From IMG/VR virus record IMGVR_UViG_3300027573_000067, positions 1 to 41,283 of that record: a DNA stretch of 41,283 nt; one strand, written 5' to 3'. Shown piece by piece: positions 3,131 through 9,416 of this stretch. Source of the DNA: a virus. The notes under the pieces are model-generated. The model worked only from the letters and a program-made list of their open reading frames with translations. It searched no databases and had not been told where the DNA came from. Both the position numbers and the translations under genes were made by a program. Position 1 is the first letter of the stretch; the number at the start of each line of letters is the position of its first letter.

Positions 3131-3643
3131 CTACGCTCCACCCGAAGCTGGAGCCGTCTCGCCCCTGGAGCTACCAGGAGTCCGCCGGTCATCCGGTTTC
3201 GGGGCGGGGCTGCGCGGGGCCTTCGGGCCCCCGCCCAAATGAGTCTCGAACACGGGCCCCCGGTATGGGGACACGTTGAAGAGGACGCCCTGGTGGGCGG
3301 ACTCGACGGGCTCCTTCTCGATCACGGCGCGGTAGACGAGGGAGTCATCCCCGAAGGCGACGTGCTTCAGGCCATCCTCGGCGCCCTTCAGCATGTTGGT
3401 CAAGTCGGCGCGCGAGGAAGTGGCGCGGAAGCGCATGAGGAGCTCGACCGGCCCCGAGATGGGCTGGCGCGCTTCCTGGTGGAAGCCGGCCCAGAGGGCC
3501 TTCTGCCACGCCTTCAAGTCGGGAGGGGCGACCCGGACGCCGGCGGGCGACTTCCCGAGCCCCCAGGTGACGGGCTTCCCCGGCACCCAGATCATGGCGG
3601 GCGGCCCAAGGTCCAGCCGGTAGCGGCAACGGGGGCAGGTCAT
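3131..3643 (-). CDS. rusA: RusA-family Holliday junction resolvase
   Basis: RusA enzymes cut four-way DNA junctions as metal-dependent homodimers; phages use them to trim branched DNA before packaging. The match is in residues about 17-125. It opens with WVPGKPVTW. A central SRADLTNMLKGAEDGL stands in for the family's DxDN..K...D pattern. FGDDSLVYRAVIEK then supplies the paired acidic residues and the following strand. The frame begins with MTCPRCRYRLD, an added CxxC leader absent from classic RusA; an internal ATG at MIWVPG may be the true start. The last 40 residues are disordered. Confidence 0.78.
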   Translation of the reverse strand: MTCPRCRYRLDLGPPAMIWVPGKPVTWGLGKSPAGVRVAPPDLKAWQKALWAGFHQEARQPISGPVELLMRFRATSSRADLTNMLKGAEDGLKHVAFGDDSLVYRAVIEKEPVESAHQGVLFNVSPYRGPVFETHLGGGPKAPRSPAPKPDDRRTPGSSRGETAPASGGA

Positions 3644-3927
3644 TCGGCCGCTTCCTTGGGGTCAAGCTCCGGGATCCCGGCGTTCGAGAGCCGCGCCTCG
3701 AACTCCTTGATCGCCTTCAAGGCCAGCCGGCCGTCCGAGCCGGCCACCAAGTCCACGGCGCGGCGCTTCTCGGCCTTCTCTATCCGCTCCTCTAGCGCCC
3801 CCACCTTCTCCGAGAGTGCCCGCACCTGGCTCGCGAGCTGGACAAGGGCTTGCTGAAGTGCCTGTGGTGACGGTCCCCCGTCCCTTTCATCCAGGAGCCG
3901 CTCGAGCTTCCGCTTCTTCCACCCCAT
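3640..3927 (-). CDS. Coiled-coil hypothetical protein, 95 aa
   Basis: Residues about 22-60 (LQQALVQLASQVRALSEKVGALEERIEKAEKRR) form a clear heptad coiled coil, flanked by a basic N terminus (MGWKKRKLERLL). It overlaps the resolvase start by four bases. Probably oligomeric; role unknown. Confidence 0.65.
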   Translation of the reverse strand: MGWKKRKLERLLDERDGGPSPQALQQALVQLASQVRALSEKVGALEERIEKAEKRRAVDLVAGSDGRLALKAIKEFEARLSNAGIPELDPKEAAE

Positions 3928-4248
3928 CTACGCCGTCTCCCTTCTCGACACCCCCCGCTCCACCCGGGTCAGCTTTGGGGCGGGCTCCGGCTTGACCTTG
4001 GGCGGGCGCCCACGGGGCCGGCCCGTCTTCCGGTGGCTCCGGGGTGCTTTGGTCGCTTTGGTCGCTTTGGTCGCGCGGGGAGCCCGGTGCGCGCGAGATT
4101 CCGCCACCAGGTCACTCCTGAGCTCCATGACCTTCACCGTCAACTCGGAGTGGAGGGTGAAGAGCGCGGTCAGGAGCTCAGCCACCTCACCGAAGCGGGT
4201 GAGCACGTCAACAGACCGCGGGCGATGTGAACCAACCCGGCGCGCCAT
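3928..4248 (-). CDS. AT-hook DNA-binding protein, 106 aa
   Basis: The start at MARRVGSH is set by GGAGGTGTGAGG directly upstream. The N-terminal half (residues 10-40) is helical. The C-terminal half is very basic, with a short repeat (ATKATKATK) and an exact AT-hook, GRPRGRPPK, at about residues 75-83. AT-hooks insert into the minor groove of A/T-rich DNA, so a DNA-architectural or regulatory role is likely. In this GC-rich genome the obvious A/T-rich target is the adjoining control region at 4820-5130, which is inference. Confidence 0.65.
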   Translation of the reverse strand: MARRVGSHRPRSVDVLTRFGEVAELLTALFTLHSELTVKVMELRSDLVAESRAHRAPRATKATKATKAPRSHRKTGRPRGRPPKVKPEPAPKLTRVERGVSRRETA

Positions 4249-4250
4249 CC

Positions 4251-4619
4251 TCACACCTCCGAGAGCGGCGAGCCGCGGAACTCCCACGGCTTCGGCTCGC
4301 CCGCGACCGGAGGACTCGACTTCGGCTCGAGCACCGTGGGCAACCCAGCGCGAATCCTACGGCAGAGCTCGTGAATCACCACCCACCGGCCCCGACTCGT
4401 CTTCCCCATGAAGCCCTCGCCCATCCTTACCAACTCCGCACACTGCACACACTTCCCACGATACCGATTCCTCTGGAACCGATCCCGCCGAACCACGCAA
4501 TCCGCACGGCGCGTGACCTCATCCATTCCCTGAAGCACCCGCAACTCGTTGTCCCACAACGCCGGCCCCCGTAAGCTCTTATTTTCCACTGTCAAGTGCT
4601 TTTTTCCCCGGCAATCCAT
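4251..4619 (-). CDS. Small zinc-finger-like protein, first gene of the leftward unit
   Basis: The conserved part is CVQCAELVRMGEGFM..... RWVVIHELC (residues about 58-87), a CxxC...HxxC arrangement seen in many phage and actinobacterial small proteins that probably bind one zinc. It is the first gene left of the divergent control region. The start is uncertain: ATG at 4619, TTG at 4559 (GGGGG upstream) or ATG at 4526. A promoter-like TTGACA preceded by an A-tract lies inside the longest version, which favours a shorter protein. Confidence 0.6.
   Translation of the reverse strand: MDCRGKKHLTVENKSLRGPALWDNELRVLQGMDEVTRRADCVVRRDRFQRNRYRGKCVQCAELVRMGEGFMGKTSRGRWVVIHELCRRIRAGLPTVLEPKSSPPVAGEPKPWEFRGSPLSEV
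4590..4595 (-). promoter_or_regulatory. Possible leftward promoter -35 box with A-tract
   Basis: A perfect TTGACA on the minus strand is preceded by AAAAAA and lies just upstream of the leftward operon's probable coding start. No good -10 hexamer stands at the ideal distance; TTACGG at 15 bp is the nearest. The A-tract could act as an UP element. Confidence 0.35.
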
Positions 4620-4635
4620 GTCTATCTTCCAACTC

Positions 4636-4650
4636 CGCGCAAATTGCGCG
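4636..4650. promoter_or_regulatory. 15-bp palindrome, candidate operator
   Basis: CGCGCAA-A-TTGCGCG is a perfect inverted repeat 17 bp upstream of the longest start of the first leftward gene. It shares the CAA/TTGCG halves seen in the dyad upstream of the XRE repressor at 14352-14370, but with a different spacing, so binding by the same protein is only possible. Confidence 0.4.
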
Positions 4651-4927
4651 TTATGACTTAACCCTCAGTCCCATCCTCGGGGGCTGGTGGCCGGGTCGAG
4701 CGGACTGCGCGGAGCGGCAGCGCAGCGGCCTTGAAGCCCCGTCAACGCTCCCTCTTCTCCCTCCCCAGAACACTCTCCTATCTACCGCATTCCACCACAC
4801 CCCACAACCCCAATTCCACGCGGATTCCTTGTTGCGAAAACGGGAAAATTATTGCGAAAGTTTCGCGAGAAGGAGTCCCAAGGGATCTCCACCCCCACCC
4901 CCTTCGCTCACGCTCCCCCCCCGTCAT

Positions 4928-4942
4928 GGGGCAGAATGCCCC
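4928..4942. repeat. Dyad GGGGCA-N3-TGCCCC, copy 1
   Basis: GGGGCA-GAA-TGCCCC. The same 6-3-6 dyad recurs at 37313-37327 with ATT as centre. In both places it is followed after 15-16 bp by GCAAG and then ACC, with GGCC and AAT between. Probably a protein-binding site. Confidence 0.5.
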
Positions 4943-4954
4943 AAGGCCAATCCA

Positions 4955-5028
4955 CCAGCAAGACCCATGCCAACCGCTAACCCCTTGCTGGCATGAGACT
5001 TGCCTACAGCCCAGCAAGACCCTTGCCA
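4955..5028. repeat. Paired 18-bp direct repeats with GCAAG/CTTGC half-sites
   Basis: CCAGCAAGACCCATGCCA (4955-4972) and CCAGCAAGACCCTTGCCA (5011-5028) differ at one base and start 56 bp apart. Between them lies CTTGCTGG (4984-4991), the exact reverse complement of CCAGCAAG, and another CTTGC at 4999. The second copy contains the 13-bp dyad GCAAG-ACC-CTTGC. This is an operator or iteron-like cluster upstream of the rightward promoter. Confidence 0.5.
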
Positions 5029-5098
5029 TCTCATGGTATGCAAGAGCTGTGCCAGTGCGATCGGGTGCTGCGAGAGTTCACATTTAATTTACAACGAA

Positions 5099-5130
5099 TT
5101 GACATGACATGGACCCTGACAGGTGATAGG
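5099..5130 (+). promoter_or_regulatory. Probable rightward promoter
   Basis: TTGACA at 5099-5104 is followed by GATAGG at 5125-5130 as the best -10 candidate, with a long (20 bp) spacer. The upstream 5075-5100 segment is unusually A/T-rich for this genome. It lies 43 bp before the first rightward gene. Confidence 0.4.
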
Positions 5131-5172
5131 CTGCATTTGCTGGGAATGGGCCCGGCGGGGAGGGAAGCGGCA

Positions 5173-5514
5173 ATGAATCGGTGCGTAGTGGATCGGGAAG
5201 AGTGGGAGCTGATGTGGCGGAAGTTGGGGGAGCGGCCTGGGGCGCATGGGGACGTGGCGGATCTGTGCCCCTGCTGTGGGGAGGTGTGGCAGTACATGGG
5301 GACGGGCTGGAGGCTTGCGCCGTTCGGCCATCCTTGTGGCGGGTGGGTCCATACGTTCCGGCATCGGCACGGGCGGACTGAGCTGGGGTCGAGGTCGAGG
5401 GCGCGGGTGAATGTCTCGGTGGCGGCGTCGTGGGAGTTCGTGGCGCGGGTTAAGCCGGCGGCCGGTGACTCGCTGTGGGTCGAGGCCGGGGCGCCGGCGG
5501 GGGTGGCGCGATGA
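5173..5514 (+). CDS. Zinc-ribbon-like hypothetical protein, first rightward gene
   Basis: A 113-residue protein starting at MNRCVVDREEWEL; the start is set by GGGGAGGGAAG just upstream. The middle carries CPCCG followed by a histidine/cysteine group (GHPCGGWVHTFRHRH), consistent with one zinc site. The C-terminal third has no recognisable motif. It opens an operon of overlapping genes. Function unknown. Confidence 0.65.
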   Translation: MNRCVVDREEWELMWRKLGERPGAHGDVADLCPCCGEVWQYMGTGWRLAPFGHPCGGWVHTFRHRHGRTELGSRSRARVNVSVAASWEFVARVKPAAGDSLWVEAGAPAGVAR

Positions 5515-5681
5515 GTGCCGAGGATGAACGGCCTGGGCTCGTGGTCGTGGCGCTGGTGGTGGCGTGGCTTGTGCTGGGCATGATGGGCACGGCCCGGGAA
5601 GCCTTCGAGGGCGACGAAGGCGCGCGGGAGTGGGGGCTCCAAGCGCCAGCGGAAGAGCGGCCCGAGTTCTGGGGACGGTGA
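5511..5681 (+). CDS. Small single-pass membrane protein, 56 aa
   Basis: It starts inside the stop of the previous gene (ATGA). One hydrophobic segment (residues about 10-27, VVVALVVAWLVLGMMG) is followed by an acidic, soluble tail. No signal cleavage motif is visible. Role unknown. Confidence 0.6.
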   Translation: MSAEDERPGLVVVALVVAWLVLGMMGTAREAFEGDEGAREWGLQAPAEERPEFWGR

Positions 5682-5701
5682 GGGACGGCGGGGCCATGCC
5701 C

Positions 5702-5752
5702 TGCCGGTAAACCGCAAGCCCGGTTCCAAGCCCGGGCGGAAAGGAAACGGCA
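5702..5752 (+). ncRNA. Folded, pseudoknotted leader element before the DUF2786 gene
   Basis: TGCCG (5702-5706) pairs with CGGCA (5748-5752). Inside, CCG (5712-5714) pairs with CGG (5737-5739), and CCCGG (5719-5723) pairs with CCGGG (5732-5736) around the loop TTCCAAGC. The loop bases TTCC (5724-5727) can pair with GGAA (5743-5746) as a pseudoknot. The hairpin and its loop resemble the CCAAGCCCGG apical part of twister ribozymes, and a U|A step follows the outer stem at 5708/5709. However, the internal AUAAA loop typical of twisters is missing. It ends three bases before the DUF2786 ATG. Confidence 0.4.
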
Positions 5753-5754
5753 CG

Positions 5755-6522
5755 ATGACTCACGAGGAAGCAATCCGGCGAGCTGCGGCACTTCTCCGAC
5801 TCGCCGACAAGGCGGGGACGGCGGAAGAGGCGGCGGCGGCGGCTGGGAAGGCTCAAGCCCTGATGACGCGCTATGAGCTGGATTCGGGGATGCTCGATAC
5901 GTCGGAAGCCTCGGCGGACCCTGGGCCCATGATCTCGACCGCGCGCGGTGGTGATCCGGTGGGTGATCTCGGGAGCGGGGCCCGCATGGAACGGTGGCGC
6001 TGGGCGCTCGCCTGGGCGCTCTGCAAGGTGAACGGGTGCGCGCCCACGATTCGGCGCTCGGGCGACCGCAAGCGGCTCGATCTGATCGGGCGCGCGGGCC
6101 ACGTCGATACCGTGCGGTATCTCTTCCCAGCGATCGCCCGTCAGGTCGAGGCGGCAGCCCGGGCCGAGTGCCGAGGCATGGGTGGAGTGTACCGGCGAAA
6201 CTTCTGCGACGGCGCCGTTGAGACGATCCGCAAGCGCTTACAGGACGCGGCGGCCGAGGCCGTGGCCGAGTTCAAGGCAGAGGCGGGGCGCGAGGGCTGG
6301 GGGCTCGTCCGAGTCAATACGGCGCTACAGCGCGTCGAGGGCGCCCACAAGGCGGCGATGGCGGCCGCTCCCGGGTTCGGCGTGCGCTACTCGTCCGGCT
6401 CTCGTTCGGCGGCTCAATTCGACCATGCGGGGCGCGAGGCTGGCCGGCGAGCGGGCGCCCGCTTCTCGCTCGGCGGTTCGGCTGGCGCACTCGCGGGCGG
6501 CCAGCGGAGGCTCCCCCTATAA
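5755..6522 (+). CDS. DUF2786-family protein
   Basis: A 255-residue protein. Residues 3-45 carry the DUF2786 signature: a helix with AAALLRLADKAGTAEEAAAAAGKAQALMTRYEL, matching the family's LLxLA....EAExAxxxAQxLM pattern. The region after residue 75 (ERWRWALAWALCKVNGCAP...) resembles the domain that usually follows DUF2786. DUF2786 proteins are common in phages, plasmids and actinobacteria; no activity is established. The gene is isolated from its neighbours by two folded RNA elements, unlike the rest of the operon, where genes overlap by one to four bases. Confidence 0.75.
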   Translation: MTHEEAIRRAAALLRLADKAGTAEEAAAAAGKAQALMTRYELDSGMLDTSEASADPGPMISTARGGDPVGDLGSGARMERWRWALAWALCKVNGCAPTIRRSGDRKRLDLIGRAGHVDTVRYLFPAIARQVEAAARAECRGMGGVYRRNFCDGAVETIRKRLQDAAAEAVAEFKAEAGREGWGLVRVNTALQRVEGAHKAAMAAAPGFGVRYSSGSRSAAQFDHAGREAGRRAGARFSLGGSAGALAGGQRRLPL

Positions 6523-6523
6523 G

Positions 6524-6595
6524 CGGCGAAACCGGGTGACAGCACCCGGTCGTGCGGCGAGCCTCGCCTAACCCGTGCCTGATGAGCCGGCGAGG
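6524..6595 (+). ncRNA. Type II hammerhead self-cleaving ribozyme
   Basis: All catalytic-core parts are present in type II order. Stem II 3' strand is CGGC (6524-6527), followed by GAAA (6528-6531). Stem III is CCGGGT (6532-6537) with ACCCGG (6544-6549) around loop GACAGC, closed by the A6531-T6550 pair. The cleavage triplet GTC ends at C6551. Stem I is GTGCGG (6552-6557) with CCGTGC (6573-6578), including two G-U pairs. The core CTGATGA is at 6579-6585, and stem II 5' strand is GCCG (6586-6589). Loop I bases 6562-6567 (CCTCGC) pair with 6590-6595 (GCGAGG), the six-pair pseudoknot typical of bacterial type II hammerheads. Cleavage is predicted between 6551 and 6552. It fills the gap from the DUF2786 stop (6522) almost to the ArdC ATG (6616). 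Confidence 0.9.
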
Positions 6596-6615
6596 AGAAG
6601 GGGAAACGGCAACCC

Positions 6616-7026
6616 ATGAAAGCGAAGCGATCCGAGGAGGAGCGAGCGGCCTGGTATGACTCCATGCGCGCGCTCGCGGCCAAGGTGTCAGCGATGGAAG
6701 ACGGCGAGCGCCAACGGCTCGCCGATGAGCTGGGAACGGTGACGGCAGAGGGCCGGCCGCTTTCAGCCTTCAATACCGTATTCCTTGCCAATCAGGCGGG
6801 GCGGGTGCTGGCGCAGGTCGGCGGGTTTCGGCAGTGGCAGAAGGCCGGGCGCATGGTCAAGAAGGGGGAACATGCGGCCGGGCGAATCTGGGTCCCGACC
6901 GGGGCCCGGGACGCGGCCGAGGGTGAGGCGGACGGAAACGGGAACGGGCGCCGGCGGTTCGTGCTCGTGCCCGTGTTCGACGTGACCCAGACCGAGCCGG
7001 CCGAGGCGCAAGGGGGTGCGGCGTGA
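6616..7026 (+). CDS. ArdC-like antirestriction protein, N-terminal domain only
   Basis: Residues about 55-90 (LSAFNTVFLANQAGRVLAQVGGFRQWQKAGRMVKKGEHA) and 110-127 (RRFVLVPVFDVTQTEP) match the ssDNA-binding N-terminal domain of ArdC. That domain has N..L....., a GF..W...GR.V.KGE turn and the VFDVxQTE strand. ArdC proteins protect incoming single-stranded plasmid or phage DNA from restriction. The usual C-terminal metallopeptidase domain is absent: the protein stops at 136 residues, so it is either a domain-only version or split. The start follows the hammerhead ribozyme by 20 bases, with GAGGAGAAGG upstream. Confidence 0.72.
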   Translation: MKAKRSEEERAAWYDSMRALAAKVSAMEDGERQRLADELGTVTAEGRPLSAFNTVFLANQAGRVLAQVGGFRQWQKAGRMVKKGEHAAGRIWVPTGARDAAEGEADGNGNGRRRFVLVPVFDVTQTEPAEAQGGAA

Positions 7027-7622
7027 GCCGCCCCCTCGCGACCACGGAAACCCGTGGTGCTGTCGAGGCGCTCGCCCTCGCTCTCGCCCGGGCACTCGGT
7101 GAAGGGTGGACAGTTGCCCCCAACACGGAATACGACCACGACCGGCGGCGCGATGTGCGCCACCCGGACGGCCGGCGCTACGTTGTCCGGGAGACCATCG
7201 AAAGCGCGCGGCACATGATCGAGGCCCACGGAATCCTCCCCGCGCGATTCTCCCGCCGGACCCACGAGCAGAAGGAAAAGCCGATCGGGGGGCGCGTGTC
7301 CTTCGATCGCTCGCCCGTGGTCGCCGCTCTCGACATCGTGCGGCGGGTCTCCCGGAACTACAACGAGGAGTGGACGCGGGCGCAAGCGTCGATCGCTGAA
7401 GCCCAAAGGATCGAGTCCGAGCGGGAAAAGCTGCTTCGGGATCTCACGGCCGGCGACGGCTGGCAGCGCGGGCGCTCGGGGGTGGCCGACTTCACGGCCT
7501 GGGGCCCCGGTCCCCTCTGGAAACTCGTGGTCGCCTATGACCGCAACGTGGAGCTGGAGCTACGCAATCTGACCCCAGAACAGGCCGCGGAAGTGATCCG
7601 CGTGCTGACCAAGGAGGACTGA
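7023..7622 (+). CDS. Hypothetical protein, 199 aa
   Basis: The GTG start overlaps the ArdC-like stop (GTGA). Residues 1-60 look alpha/beta (WTVAPNTEYDHDRRRDVRHPDGRRYVVRET). Residues 95-145 are helical and coiled-coil-like. The end has an aromatic strand pair (DFTAWGPGPLWKLVVAYD) before a final helix. I do not recognise the family. Its place right after ardC makes a DNA-protection or early host-takeover role possible, but nothing in the sequence shows it. Confidence 0.65.
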   Translation: MSRPLATTETRGAVEALALALARALGEGWTVAPNTEYDHDRRRDVRHPDGRRYVVRETIESARHMIEAHGILPARFSRRTHEQKEKPIGGRVSFDRSPVVAALDIVRRVSRNYNEEWTRAQASIAEAQRIESEREKLLRDLTAGDGWQRGRSGVADFTAWGPGPLWKLVVAYDRNVELELRNLTPEQAAEVIRVLTKED

Positions 7623-8059
7623 TGGGAGACCGTTGCGATTTCCGAATGCGCTGCCGGCCCCAAGACGCCGACGCAGTCGCCGAGGAGCTGGGCGCGAGCG
7701 TTGACGAGGACGAGGGTGGGCCCGGTGAGTGCTGGATCTACGACGACCAGGCAAACTACGGCCACGCGGACGCGCTCCAAAAGCTCGCAACCGTCCGGGG
7801 TGCCACGTTCTACGGATACCACGGCGCCGGCTGCGAGTATGGGCCGATGTTGTTCGCGGCCCACGGCGGGCGGCTCGCCTACATCGAAAGCGACTGGAAC
7901 GCAGATTACCCCGTGGTCGGCATCGAAAAGGACGGCACATCGCCGGCGCACTTCGTCCAGGCCGCCCGCGAGTATTACGAGCTGCTAGCGCTGGCGGTCG
8001 CGGTGCTCGAAGCGGCCGACCAGTTCGCCGAGGCGGAGAAGAAAGGGGTGGCGCCGTGA
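7622..8059 (+). CDS. Hypothetical protein, 145 aa
   Basis: It overlaps the previous stop by one base (TGATG). The protein is acidic, with an aromatic- and glycine-rich middle (YGHADALQKLATVRGATFYGYHGAGCEYGPMLFAAHGG). The C-terminal half ends in an alanine-rich helix. Unrecognised; soluble and cytoplasmic as far as can be seen. Confidence 0.65.
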   Translation: MGDRCDFRMRCRPQDADAVAEELGASVDEDEGGPGECWIYDDQANYGHADALQKLATVRGATFYGYHGAGCEYGPMLFAAHGGRLAYIESDWNADYPVVGIEKDGTSPAHFVQAAREYYELLALAVAVLEAADQFAEAEKKGVAP

Positions 8060-8247
8060 GGCGCCCCCCCATCTTCCGGCAGGGCCAGCGGGTGCGCGTG
8101 CCTGGCGGGACGGGGCAAATCACCTGGACGAAGCCCCCCAACGACGCGCTCAAGGGCTGCTATCTCGTGGCCTTCGATGGGCCTAACCCGGGCACGCCGC
8201 AATGGATGGGGCCCGAGCACCTGAAACCCCTCAAGGAGGAGAAATGA
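8056..8247 (+). CDS. Small SH3/KOW-like protein, 63 aa
   Basis: GTGA overlap with the gene before and ATGA overlap with the gene after. The pattern FRQGQRVRVPGGTGQITWTKPP....YLVAFDG......WMGPEHLKPL is that of a small five-stranded SH3-like barrel (a KOW-type turn followed by a W..E.L end). Its function is unknown; such folds often bind nucleic acid or protein. Confidence 0.6.
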   Translation: MRRPPIFRQGQRVRVPGGTGQITWTKPPNDALKGCYLVAFDGPNPGTPQWMGPEHLKPLKEEK

Positions 8248-8471
8248 ACCGCATGCCACCCTGGCAGATCGAGGACCTCTGCAAAGTGCTCCTCGAAGAC
8301 GGCTCGCCCATGCCGGCAACGGCGGTCTATCTCATTCGCGAGCTAGCCTCTCGCATTGTCCAGCTAGAGGACGAGCACGCCGAACTCAAAGACCGCCTCG
8401 AAGACTGGCTCGAAGGGCAACGCGCGCTCCAGCGGGCGGTCGCGGCAAATACGGAAAGGAGCGAGGGGTGA
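8244..8471 (+). CDS. Small helical protein, 75 aa
   Basis: A strong AGGAGGAGAA ribosome binding site precedes the ATG at 8244. Residues 25-60 form a coiled-coil helix (LIRELASRIVQLEDEHAELKDRLEDWLEG). Unrecognised. Confidence 0.6.
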   Translation: MNRMPPWQIEDLCKVLLEDGSPMPATAVYLIRELASRIVQLEDEHAELKDRLEDWLEGQRALQRAVAANTERSEG

Positions 8472-8695
8472 TCGACGAAATCTGCGACCTGTGCGGCGAA
8501 GCGGTGCCGCCCGATGAGCTTACGACCTGCGATGCTTGCGGAGCGATCTACTGTGAGGACTGCGCCGAGGAGCATGACGGGGAGTGTCGCGAGAAGTGGG
8601 GGGACATTGACGACAGCCTGGCTTTCTGTCCCGGGTGCCACGGCGAGCACGGGCCTCCGATCTGCCCGCTCTCGCCGGGAGATGCAGGCGAATGA
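8468..8695 (+). CDS. Cysteine-rich zinc-finger protein, 75 aa
   Basis: Three CxxC pairs (CDLC, CDAC, CEDC), then a histidine/cysteine group (EEHDGEC) and a last CPGCHGEHGPPIC, enough for two to three zinc sites in a RING/B-box-like cross-brace or treble-clef layout. The protein is acidic. GTG start in a GTGA overlap. Probably binds protein rather than DNA, which is inference. Confidence 0.65.
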   Translation: MIDEICDLCGEAVPPDELTTCDACGAIYCEDCAEEHDGECREKWGDIDDSLAFCPGCHGEHGPPICPLSPGDAGE

Positions 8696-8907
8696 GCATC
8701 TACCCCTCGGCGCCGATCAATCATGCCCTCGACCGGCTCTATCGTGTGCTCTCGAACACCACGGGGCGCCCACAAACCCGGCTCTACGTCTACGCCCCGG
8801 GCATGCGGTTCAACCTCAACGACATCCTGCGCGAGATCGACCACGCCTCAAGCCTTCTCGATGCTTGGAGCCACGGCGACCCGCTTCAGCGAAAGCGCAC
8901 CCCATGA
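8692..8907 (+). CDS. Hypothetical protein, 71 aa
   Basis: It starts within the previous stop (ATGA) and ends within the start of the next gene. The sequence (NHALDRLYRVLSNTTGRPQTRLYVYAPGMRFNLNDILREID) suggests a small alpha/beta protein. Not recognised. Confidence 0.55.
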   Translation: MSIYPSAPINHALDRLYRVLSNTTGRPQTRLYVYAPGMRFNLNDILREIDHASSLLDAWSHGDPLQRKRTP

Positions 8908-9293
8908 AGCCGAAGCGGAGCTCCCTCTACAACTATCCCCAGGCCCTCGCCTCGATGCGCTACGACCAGAAGTGGCGCATCCCCACTCCCGAGGCGTTTC
9001 GGACCTGGCTCGTCCGCGCCCGGCGCTCCTGCTCCCCACCCCTCTCGCAGCGGGAGCTCGGGGCCTTGGCCGGCCTCCATCACCAAGCGATTGCCTCGAT
9101 CGAGCGCGGGCGCCGGGAGCCATCGCTCGAGGTCGCCAACCGGCTCTGGCGCATCCTTCACGCCGCCTTCCAGGGAAAGCTCTGGATCGGGGTCCAGATC
9201 CGCCGCGACAACCGCGACTCCGTGGCCCGTGGGAAGGTTGCGCTCGACGCCACCCCCGTCAAGCTGCGGAAGCTCAATCCCGATAGTCCATAA
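8904..9293 (+). CDS. XRE-family transcriptional regulator
   Basis: A 129-residue protein with a helix-turn-helix at residues about 45-83: SQRELGALAGLHHQAIASIERGRREPSLEVANRL, the standard Cro/cI-type pattern. It is the last gene of the rightward operon, before a strong hairpin. With the XRE repressor on the other strand at 14339 it could form a two-regulator switch, although the two genes are not adjacent as cI and cro are. Its operators are most likely in the 4928-5130 repeat cluster, by inference. Confidence 0.75.
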   Translation: MKPKRSSLYNYPQALASMRYDQKWRIPTPEAFRTWLVRARRSCSPPLSQRELGALAGLHHQAIASIERGRREPSLEVANRLWRILHAAFQGKLWIGVQIRRDNRDSVARGKVALDATPVKLRKLNPDSP

Positions 9294-9297
9294 AGCA

Positions 9298-9343
9298 CGA
9301 GGGGCCGGAGTCCAGGCATGCGTTCCTGGCTCCGGCCCCCTCG
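9298..9343. terminator. Large hairpin between convergent operons
   Basis: The arms are CGAGGGGCCGGAG-T-CCAGG (9298-9316) and CCTGG-CTCCGGCCCCCTCG (9325-9343), 18 pairs with two single-base bulges around loop CATGCGTT. It lies five bases after the rightward XRE stop and about 70 bases before the end of the leftward gene at 9417. The T-tract is weak on both sides (TGCTTTA on the minus strand), so termination may be partial. The remaining bases to 9416 hold nothing recognisable. Confidence 0.7.
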
Positions 9344-9416
9344 CTTGACCAGCGGGCCCGGTCCGCTGCCTCGCCGACCCCTCGTCGAGACCGCGAAACT
9401 AATCGCCGGCCAAGGT

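Follow-up and report, generated by a model that had tools for sequence, protein, structure and literature searches.

A type II hammerhead and a Twister-P5 ribozyme on either side of a DUF2786 gene: candidate message punctuation in a viral operon

The purpose of phage ribozymes has been open since 2011, and an IMG/VR virus record (IMGVR_UViG_3300027573_000067; the whole stretch of 41,283 nucleotides analysed here will be referred to as the window) raises the question of what a self-cleaving RNA might do between two genes of one operon. The original prediction had placed a hammerhead exactly between the stop codon of a DUF2786 gene and the start of an ArdC-like gene, and this placement was confirmed. 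The element (6524-6595, + strand) lies flush with the stop codon TAA (6520-6522) of the gene at 5755-6522 (+), which encodes a DUF2786/DUF7168 protein (PF10979, 4e-8; PF23771, 9e-14; PHROG 421 (phrog_421), 6e-31), and ends 20 nt before the ATG at 6616 of an ArdC-N-like antirestriction gene (6616-7026, +; PF08401, 1.6e-6; phrog_7245 anti-restriction protein, 2e-4), the first gene 3' of the predicted cut.

All core elements and stems that had been predicted could be traced by hand and were confirmed at every position. The first strand of stem II (CGGC, 6524-6527) pairs with GCCG at 6586-6589 and is followed by GAAA (6528-6531), which represents G12, A13, A14 and A15.1 and is invariant in our alignment A2. 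The stem III hairpin (6531-6550, loop ACAG, −14.0 kcal/mol) is formed by A6531-G6538 with C6543-T6550 and comprises 8 bp if the pair A15.1-U16.1 is counted. C6551 corresponds to the cleavage-site base C17 (H17), and the hammerhead consensus predicts the cut at 6551/6552. Stem I with its loop of 15 nt spans 6552-6578 and consists of six pairs between G6552-G6557 and C6573-C6578, two of them G.U wobbles. The CTGATGA core (6579-6585) leads into the last segment (6586-6595), which holds the second strands of stem II and of a pseudoknot. The consensus parts CUGANGA, GAA, A15.1-U16.1 and H17 are represented by CTGATGA, GAAA, T6550 and C6551, and the layout is that of type II, with stems I and III closed by loops and stem II open. 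The predicted 6-bp pseudoknot between loop I and the bases 3' of stem II was also recovered, CCTCGC (6562-6567) pairing with GCGAGG (6590-6595), and it extends to 7 bp under an alternative assignment in which G6589 is moved from stem II to pair with C6568. Pseudoknots between loop I and the tail are common in type II hammerheads but not universal. When the pseudoknot is left out of the calculation, the computed minimum is 3.4 kcal/mol more stable than the hammerhead fold, a gap exceeding that of most relatives (rank 144 of 179), so that misfolding of this copy is possible.

The whole window was dinucleotide-shuffled 3,471 times and searched on both strands; no strict match equal to 6524-6595 in all three stems was obtained, and a looser hammerhead rule yielded five matches. 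The original prediction had proposed a search with the Rfam type II covariance model (RF02276, score threshold 37 bits), and here the expectation failed: no match was found in 6300-6900 at E ≤ 10, and none at 6524-6595 in a scan of the whole record. This is likely due to a longer than usual stem-loop I, which measures 27 nt compared to 22-24 nt in other phage type II hammerheads (~3-5 nt longer). RF02276 serves as a detection aid and does not define the structure; it overlooks real phage hammerheads. Phage hammerheads were also considered as a set of their own, collected by strict DNA patterns (at least 119 stretches from the first pattern) and by a structure scan (301 copies, 271 distinct). 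A covariance model built from 70 of these phage hammerheads with the window excluded (R1) found 6524-6594 in the window at 41.0 bits (E = 4.8e-10), the next best match reaching 13.4 bits. This E-value is flattering, since the collection pattern and the window have the CCGG start of stem III in common; the shuffle test and the comparison with a relative described below are independent of that bias.

Of 195 phage type II hammerheads whose loop I measures at least 7 nt, 88% can form a pseudoknot of at least 4 bp between this loop and the tail that immediately follows stem II, compared to 39% when tails were swapped between copies. The 7-bp pseudoknot of the window, counted from the fourth base of stem II, was equalled by only one of 269 hammerhead tails, namely its own, and was reached by 1.2% of random 12-mers from the window. 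Pseudoknot counts from alignment A2 are partly circular, as its sequences were picked for having a pseudoknot, and we relied on the swap test and on the comparison with the relative instead.

This relative (L161, IMGVR_UViG_3300048080_000240) was found by a protein search with a DUF2786 profile. Single-sequence searches had yielded no close relative of the DUF2786 protein in phages, plasmids, viral contigs or genome contigs, and no DNA similarity of the window to phages was found. A two-sequence profile matched only L161/L189 and a further contig (L190) among viral contigs and nothing among genome contigs; no ribozyme was found at the DUF2786 gene of L190. In L161, whose DUF2786 protein is 57% identical to that of the window, the gene order is the same: DUF2786, a hammerhead (23.6 bits, E = 2e-4 to 2e-5) and an ArdC-like gene. 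The original prediction had made its case depend on conservation of the pairs in related phages, and all 25 pairs of stems I, II and III and the pseudoknot are intact in L161, seven of them changed on both sides (one of these seven in the pseudoknot) and two changed on one side. Together with the shuffle test, this covariation excludes a chance resemblance. The core of the L161 copy, by contrast, has drifted (4869-4876), with CCGATGA in place of CTGATGA and one T inserted before stem II, so that this copy may be weak or dead and its activity is uncertain. No twister was found in L161. The assignment of 6524-6595 as a type II hammerhead ribozyme is strongly supported by its core, stems and pseudoknot, by its model score and placement, and by the covariation seen with the syntenic L161.

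The placement follows a general pattern. Among 246 distinct phage hammerheads with enough flanking sequence, 170 have an identified upstream stop codon, which ends a median of 1 nt ahead of the ribozyme, and in 213 a Shine-Dalgarno-like sequence with a start codon follows within 70 nt (median 19 nt), compared to 27% at random places; the corresponding values of the window are −1 and +20. The named families among 112 proteins encoded downstream of phage hammerheads belong to early or accessory genes and include DUF932, AAA ATPases, ArdC, ArdA, GemA and DUF2201, among others.

A second ribozyme, absent from the original prediction, is located on the other side of the DUF2786 gene. Positions 5677-5735 (+) match the Twister-P5 family (RF02684) over the full model (1-58 of 58) with 56.8 bits (E = 2.4e-9; gathering cut-off 37.6). 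As the covariance model lacks pseudoknots, the match refers to the secondary structure, T1 and T2 being outside the model. From the conserved U-A site of the family, cleavage is predicted at the UA step after the closed P1 hairpin (U5708/A5709). The twister occupies the intergenic gap between a small ORF of 56 codons (5511-5681, +, read from the sequence), whose stop TGA (5679-5681) falls within the 5' edge of the ribozyme, and the DUF2786 start at 5755. The DUF2786 gene is thus bracketed on the same strand by two unrelated ribozyme classes, and the window contains a ribozyme cluster in the sense of at least two self-cleaving ribozymes per transcript at gene-sized spacing, as judged from the sequence. 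Twister and hammerhead ribozymes are known to occur near one another. The twister as a usual partner of phage type II hammerheads was rejected: the search that recovers the window's twister found Twister-P5 in none of 50 other virus records, nearly all of which bear type II hammerheads. A Twister-sister-like match at 3710-3779 (+; 20.9 bits, cut-off 34) is antisense to a likely gene and was discarded as probably due to chance.

Ribozymes recur at DUF2786 homologues of other phages. A type II hammerhead lies just upstream of the homologue in all five Streptomyces phages considered (Alvy, Issmi, Paedore, Salutena and GirlDinner), and most of these have a further one shortly downstream. The same upstream position is occupied at seven loci (L165, L166, L167, L168, L169, L170 and L171), which overlap with the Streptomyces set (L167 is Alvy and L170 is Salutena); as some loci are the same phages and the profile was partly built from ribozyme-bearing phages, these counts indicate recurrence and not frequency. 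In another locus (L098), a DUF2786 homologue (phmmer, 2e-11) is preceded by a type II hammerhead ~19 nt upstream, and another covers its stop codon. A ribozyme at every DUF2786 gene was rejected, since neither R1 nor Rfam detected a hammerhead at the homologues fetched from Mycobacterium (2), Microbacterium (5), Rhodococcus (1) and Gordonia (2) phages. The contrast between the two-class bracket in the window, hammerheads in cultured Streptomyces phages and none in these other cultured phages makes the function testable. As separate observations, the region 3603-9067 (−) of L098 carries 12 type II hammerheads in 5.5 kb, approximately one per gene junction and including the pair at the DUF2786 homologue, and the annotated start of Alvy gene 70 (L172, 1402-2232) is upstream of a hammerhead (1416-1479), so that the deposited coding sequence appears to span the ribozyme; the real start is probably ~20 nt after it.

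We consider it likely that the hammerhead and the twister cut the operon transcript and serve as message punctuation. The hammerhead would cut after C6551, and a split of the message between the DUF2786 and ArdC-like genes follows from hammerhead chemistry; the twister would cut after U5708. The two cuts would free the DUF2786 message as an RNA of its own of ~843 nt (5709-6551), with the ArdC-like gene and those that follow it carrying on as a separate message, and since DUF2786 is bracketed on both sides, the operon message is probably cut into single-gene pieces. Owing to the permutation of both ribozymes, each upstream product would end in a stable closed hairpin with a 2',3'-cyclic phosphate, only one base (C) remaining beyond hammerhead stem III and two (GU) beyond twister P1, whereas downstream products would begin with a 5'-hydroxyl. 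Such hairpin ends would resist 3' exonucleases, and a 5'-hydroxyl end would avoid monophosphate-dependent decay. Discrete, protected message ends would be created without stopping transcription, by which neighbouring genes could differ in message lifetime and ratio. Cleavage in the cell, stabilisation and altered expression ratios are what we infer from the sequence, structure, conservation and placement observed.

Alternatively, the hammerhead might be regulated and not cut constitutively. Cleavage would then be slow unless switched, with a protein, a metabolite or the translation of DUF2786 or of the gene downstream acting as the switch, and the ribozyme would in this way control ArdC expression. 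The DUF2786 stop codon lies directly against stem II, so that a ribosome terminating there would occupy the 5' strand and might hold back folding; moreover, the GAGG in the pseudoknot strand resembles a Shine-Dalgarno sequence, and the competitor to the fold without pseudoknot is strong. The flush placement, however, is general among type II phage hammerheads whatever the gene, and we found neither a ligand-binding domain nor any additional conserved element, so that we regard regulation as unlikely, though the best of the alternatives. Lower still we rank a role in which the ribozymes excise the DUF2786 RNA and its 5'-hydroxyl and 2',3'-cyclic-phosphate ends are ligated, for example by RtcB, to a circular or otherwise stable RNA. 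It is established chemistry that the ends produced by self-cleaving ribozymes on either side of an RNA are precisely those joined by such a ligase, and ribozymes flank DUF2786 on both sides not only in the window but also in L098 and several Streptomyces phages; yet phage hammerheads are in many cases solitary or form long arrays around genes of unrelated kinds, the subset of window proteins scanned contained no recognisable ligase, and Perreault and colleagues sought spliced or circular products and found none (PMC3088659). It is just as improbable that the hammerhead has decayed and is retained only as a hairpin or processing relic. The Rfam miss and the core drift in L161 might be taken that way, but in the window copy no core position departs from the consensus and every helix is intact, and Perreault and colleagues found 14 of the 18 consensus hammerheads that they tested to be active (PMC3088659). 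A terminator or promoter region that resembles a hammerhead by chance has hardly any probability left in spite of the strong G+C-rich hairpin, as no T-run follows it, a scan of 4200-9400 revealed neither a promoter nor a + strand terminator, and chance is excluded by the shuffles and the covariation.

That hammerheads are known in phages, as the original prediction stated, is borne out by the 2011 report of type II pseudoknotted hammerheads and of clusters flanking phage genes including ardA (PMC3088659). That work also showed cleavage of tandem phage hammerheads in vitro and, for those around ardA, in E. coli, and found fast cleavage to depend on the pseudoknot (PMC3088659). The claim that a location between DUF2786 and an antirestriction gene was undescribed proved too strong, given these ardA-flanking clusters (PMC3088659) and another locus (L084) in which a full-length ArdC gene is similarly bracketed by a type II hammerhead on either side. 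With the published type II family (RF02276; PMC3088659) the window element shares the permutation, the core, closed stems I and III, an open short stem II, the pseudoknot, the phage context and gene-flanking clusters. It differs in the long stem-loop I, the 7-bp pseudoknot and a 4-nt 3' linker (shared with L161), as well as in being unrecognised by the Rfam model and in having a twister as its partner across the gene. The triple hammerhead around ardA of A. tumefaciens and the hammerhead upstream of ardA in Legionella (PMC3088659) likewise involve an antirestriction gene in a phage-like operon, but these are hammerheads only, whereas here the gene is ArdC-like and DUF2786 lies between a twister and a hammerhead. 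The full-length Twister-P5 just upstream of DUF2786 showed no structural difference from its family in the features compared, but the family is rare in this setting, as judged from the 50 hammerhead-bearing records that lack it. As in the window, the DUF2786 homologue of the five Streptomyces phages is immediately preceded, and often also followed, by a ribozyme, but their upstream position is taken by a hammerhead and not by a twister. Neither a DUF2786 gene bracketed by two ribozyme classes nor the Streptomyces phage hammerhead arrays were found reported in the openly searchable literature. The kind of hammerhead itself is known; the cross-class bracketing is the most interesting feature of the locus.

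More tentatively, and with the odds rather against it, the DUF2786 junctions of actinophage and related operons may be cut by any RNA-cutting element available, as parts of a general punctuation system. In the window this role would fall to the twister, in L098 and the Streptomyces phages to type II hammerheads, and in Gordonia phages perhaps to tRNA-like elements on which host RNase P/Z would act. If so, selection would act on a cut with hairpin-protected ends at DUF2786 junctions, with no single ribozyme favoured.

The tRNA-like elements were seen in Gordonia phages, and neither ARAGORN nor Rfam called them. Gordonia phage Cafasso (L182, MZ322021) has minihelices consisting of an acceptor-like stem and a T arm only in the gaps 1078-1173 and 1948-2041 on both sides of its DUF2786 homologue, and the same type occurs in another gene gap (L187, 10829-10871, −). 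In Gordonia phage Strosahl (L179, KX557284), an element with a 7-bp acceptor and a T arm (1064-1132) is located in the gap upstream of the DUF2786 homologue. It is possible that these elements act as RNase P/Z punctuation.

A mixture of classes was also observed in a further viral contig (L155, IMGVR_UViG_3300031707_000191), in which a single phage operon (3964-5691) carries four ribozymes of three classes within 1.7 kb, between genes and on one strand. At ~3972-4040 a type I hammerhead can be recognised by eye, for which Rfam gives only type III (27.7 bits). Two HDV-like elements (4092-4169, 39.8 bits; 5610-5691, 36.8 bits) score below the cut-off of 50, although their helices pair by eye, and 4642-4697 matches Twister-P5 with 53.5 bits.
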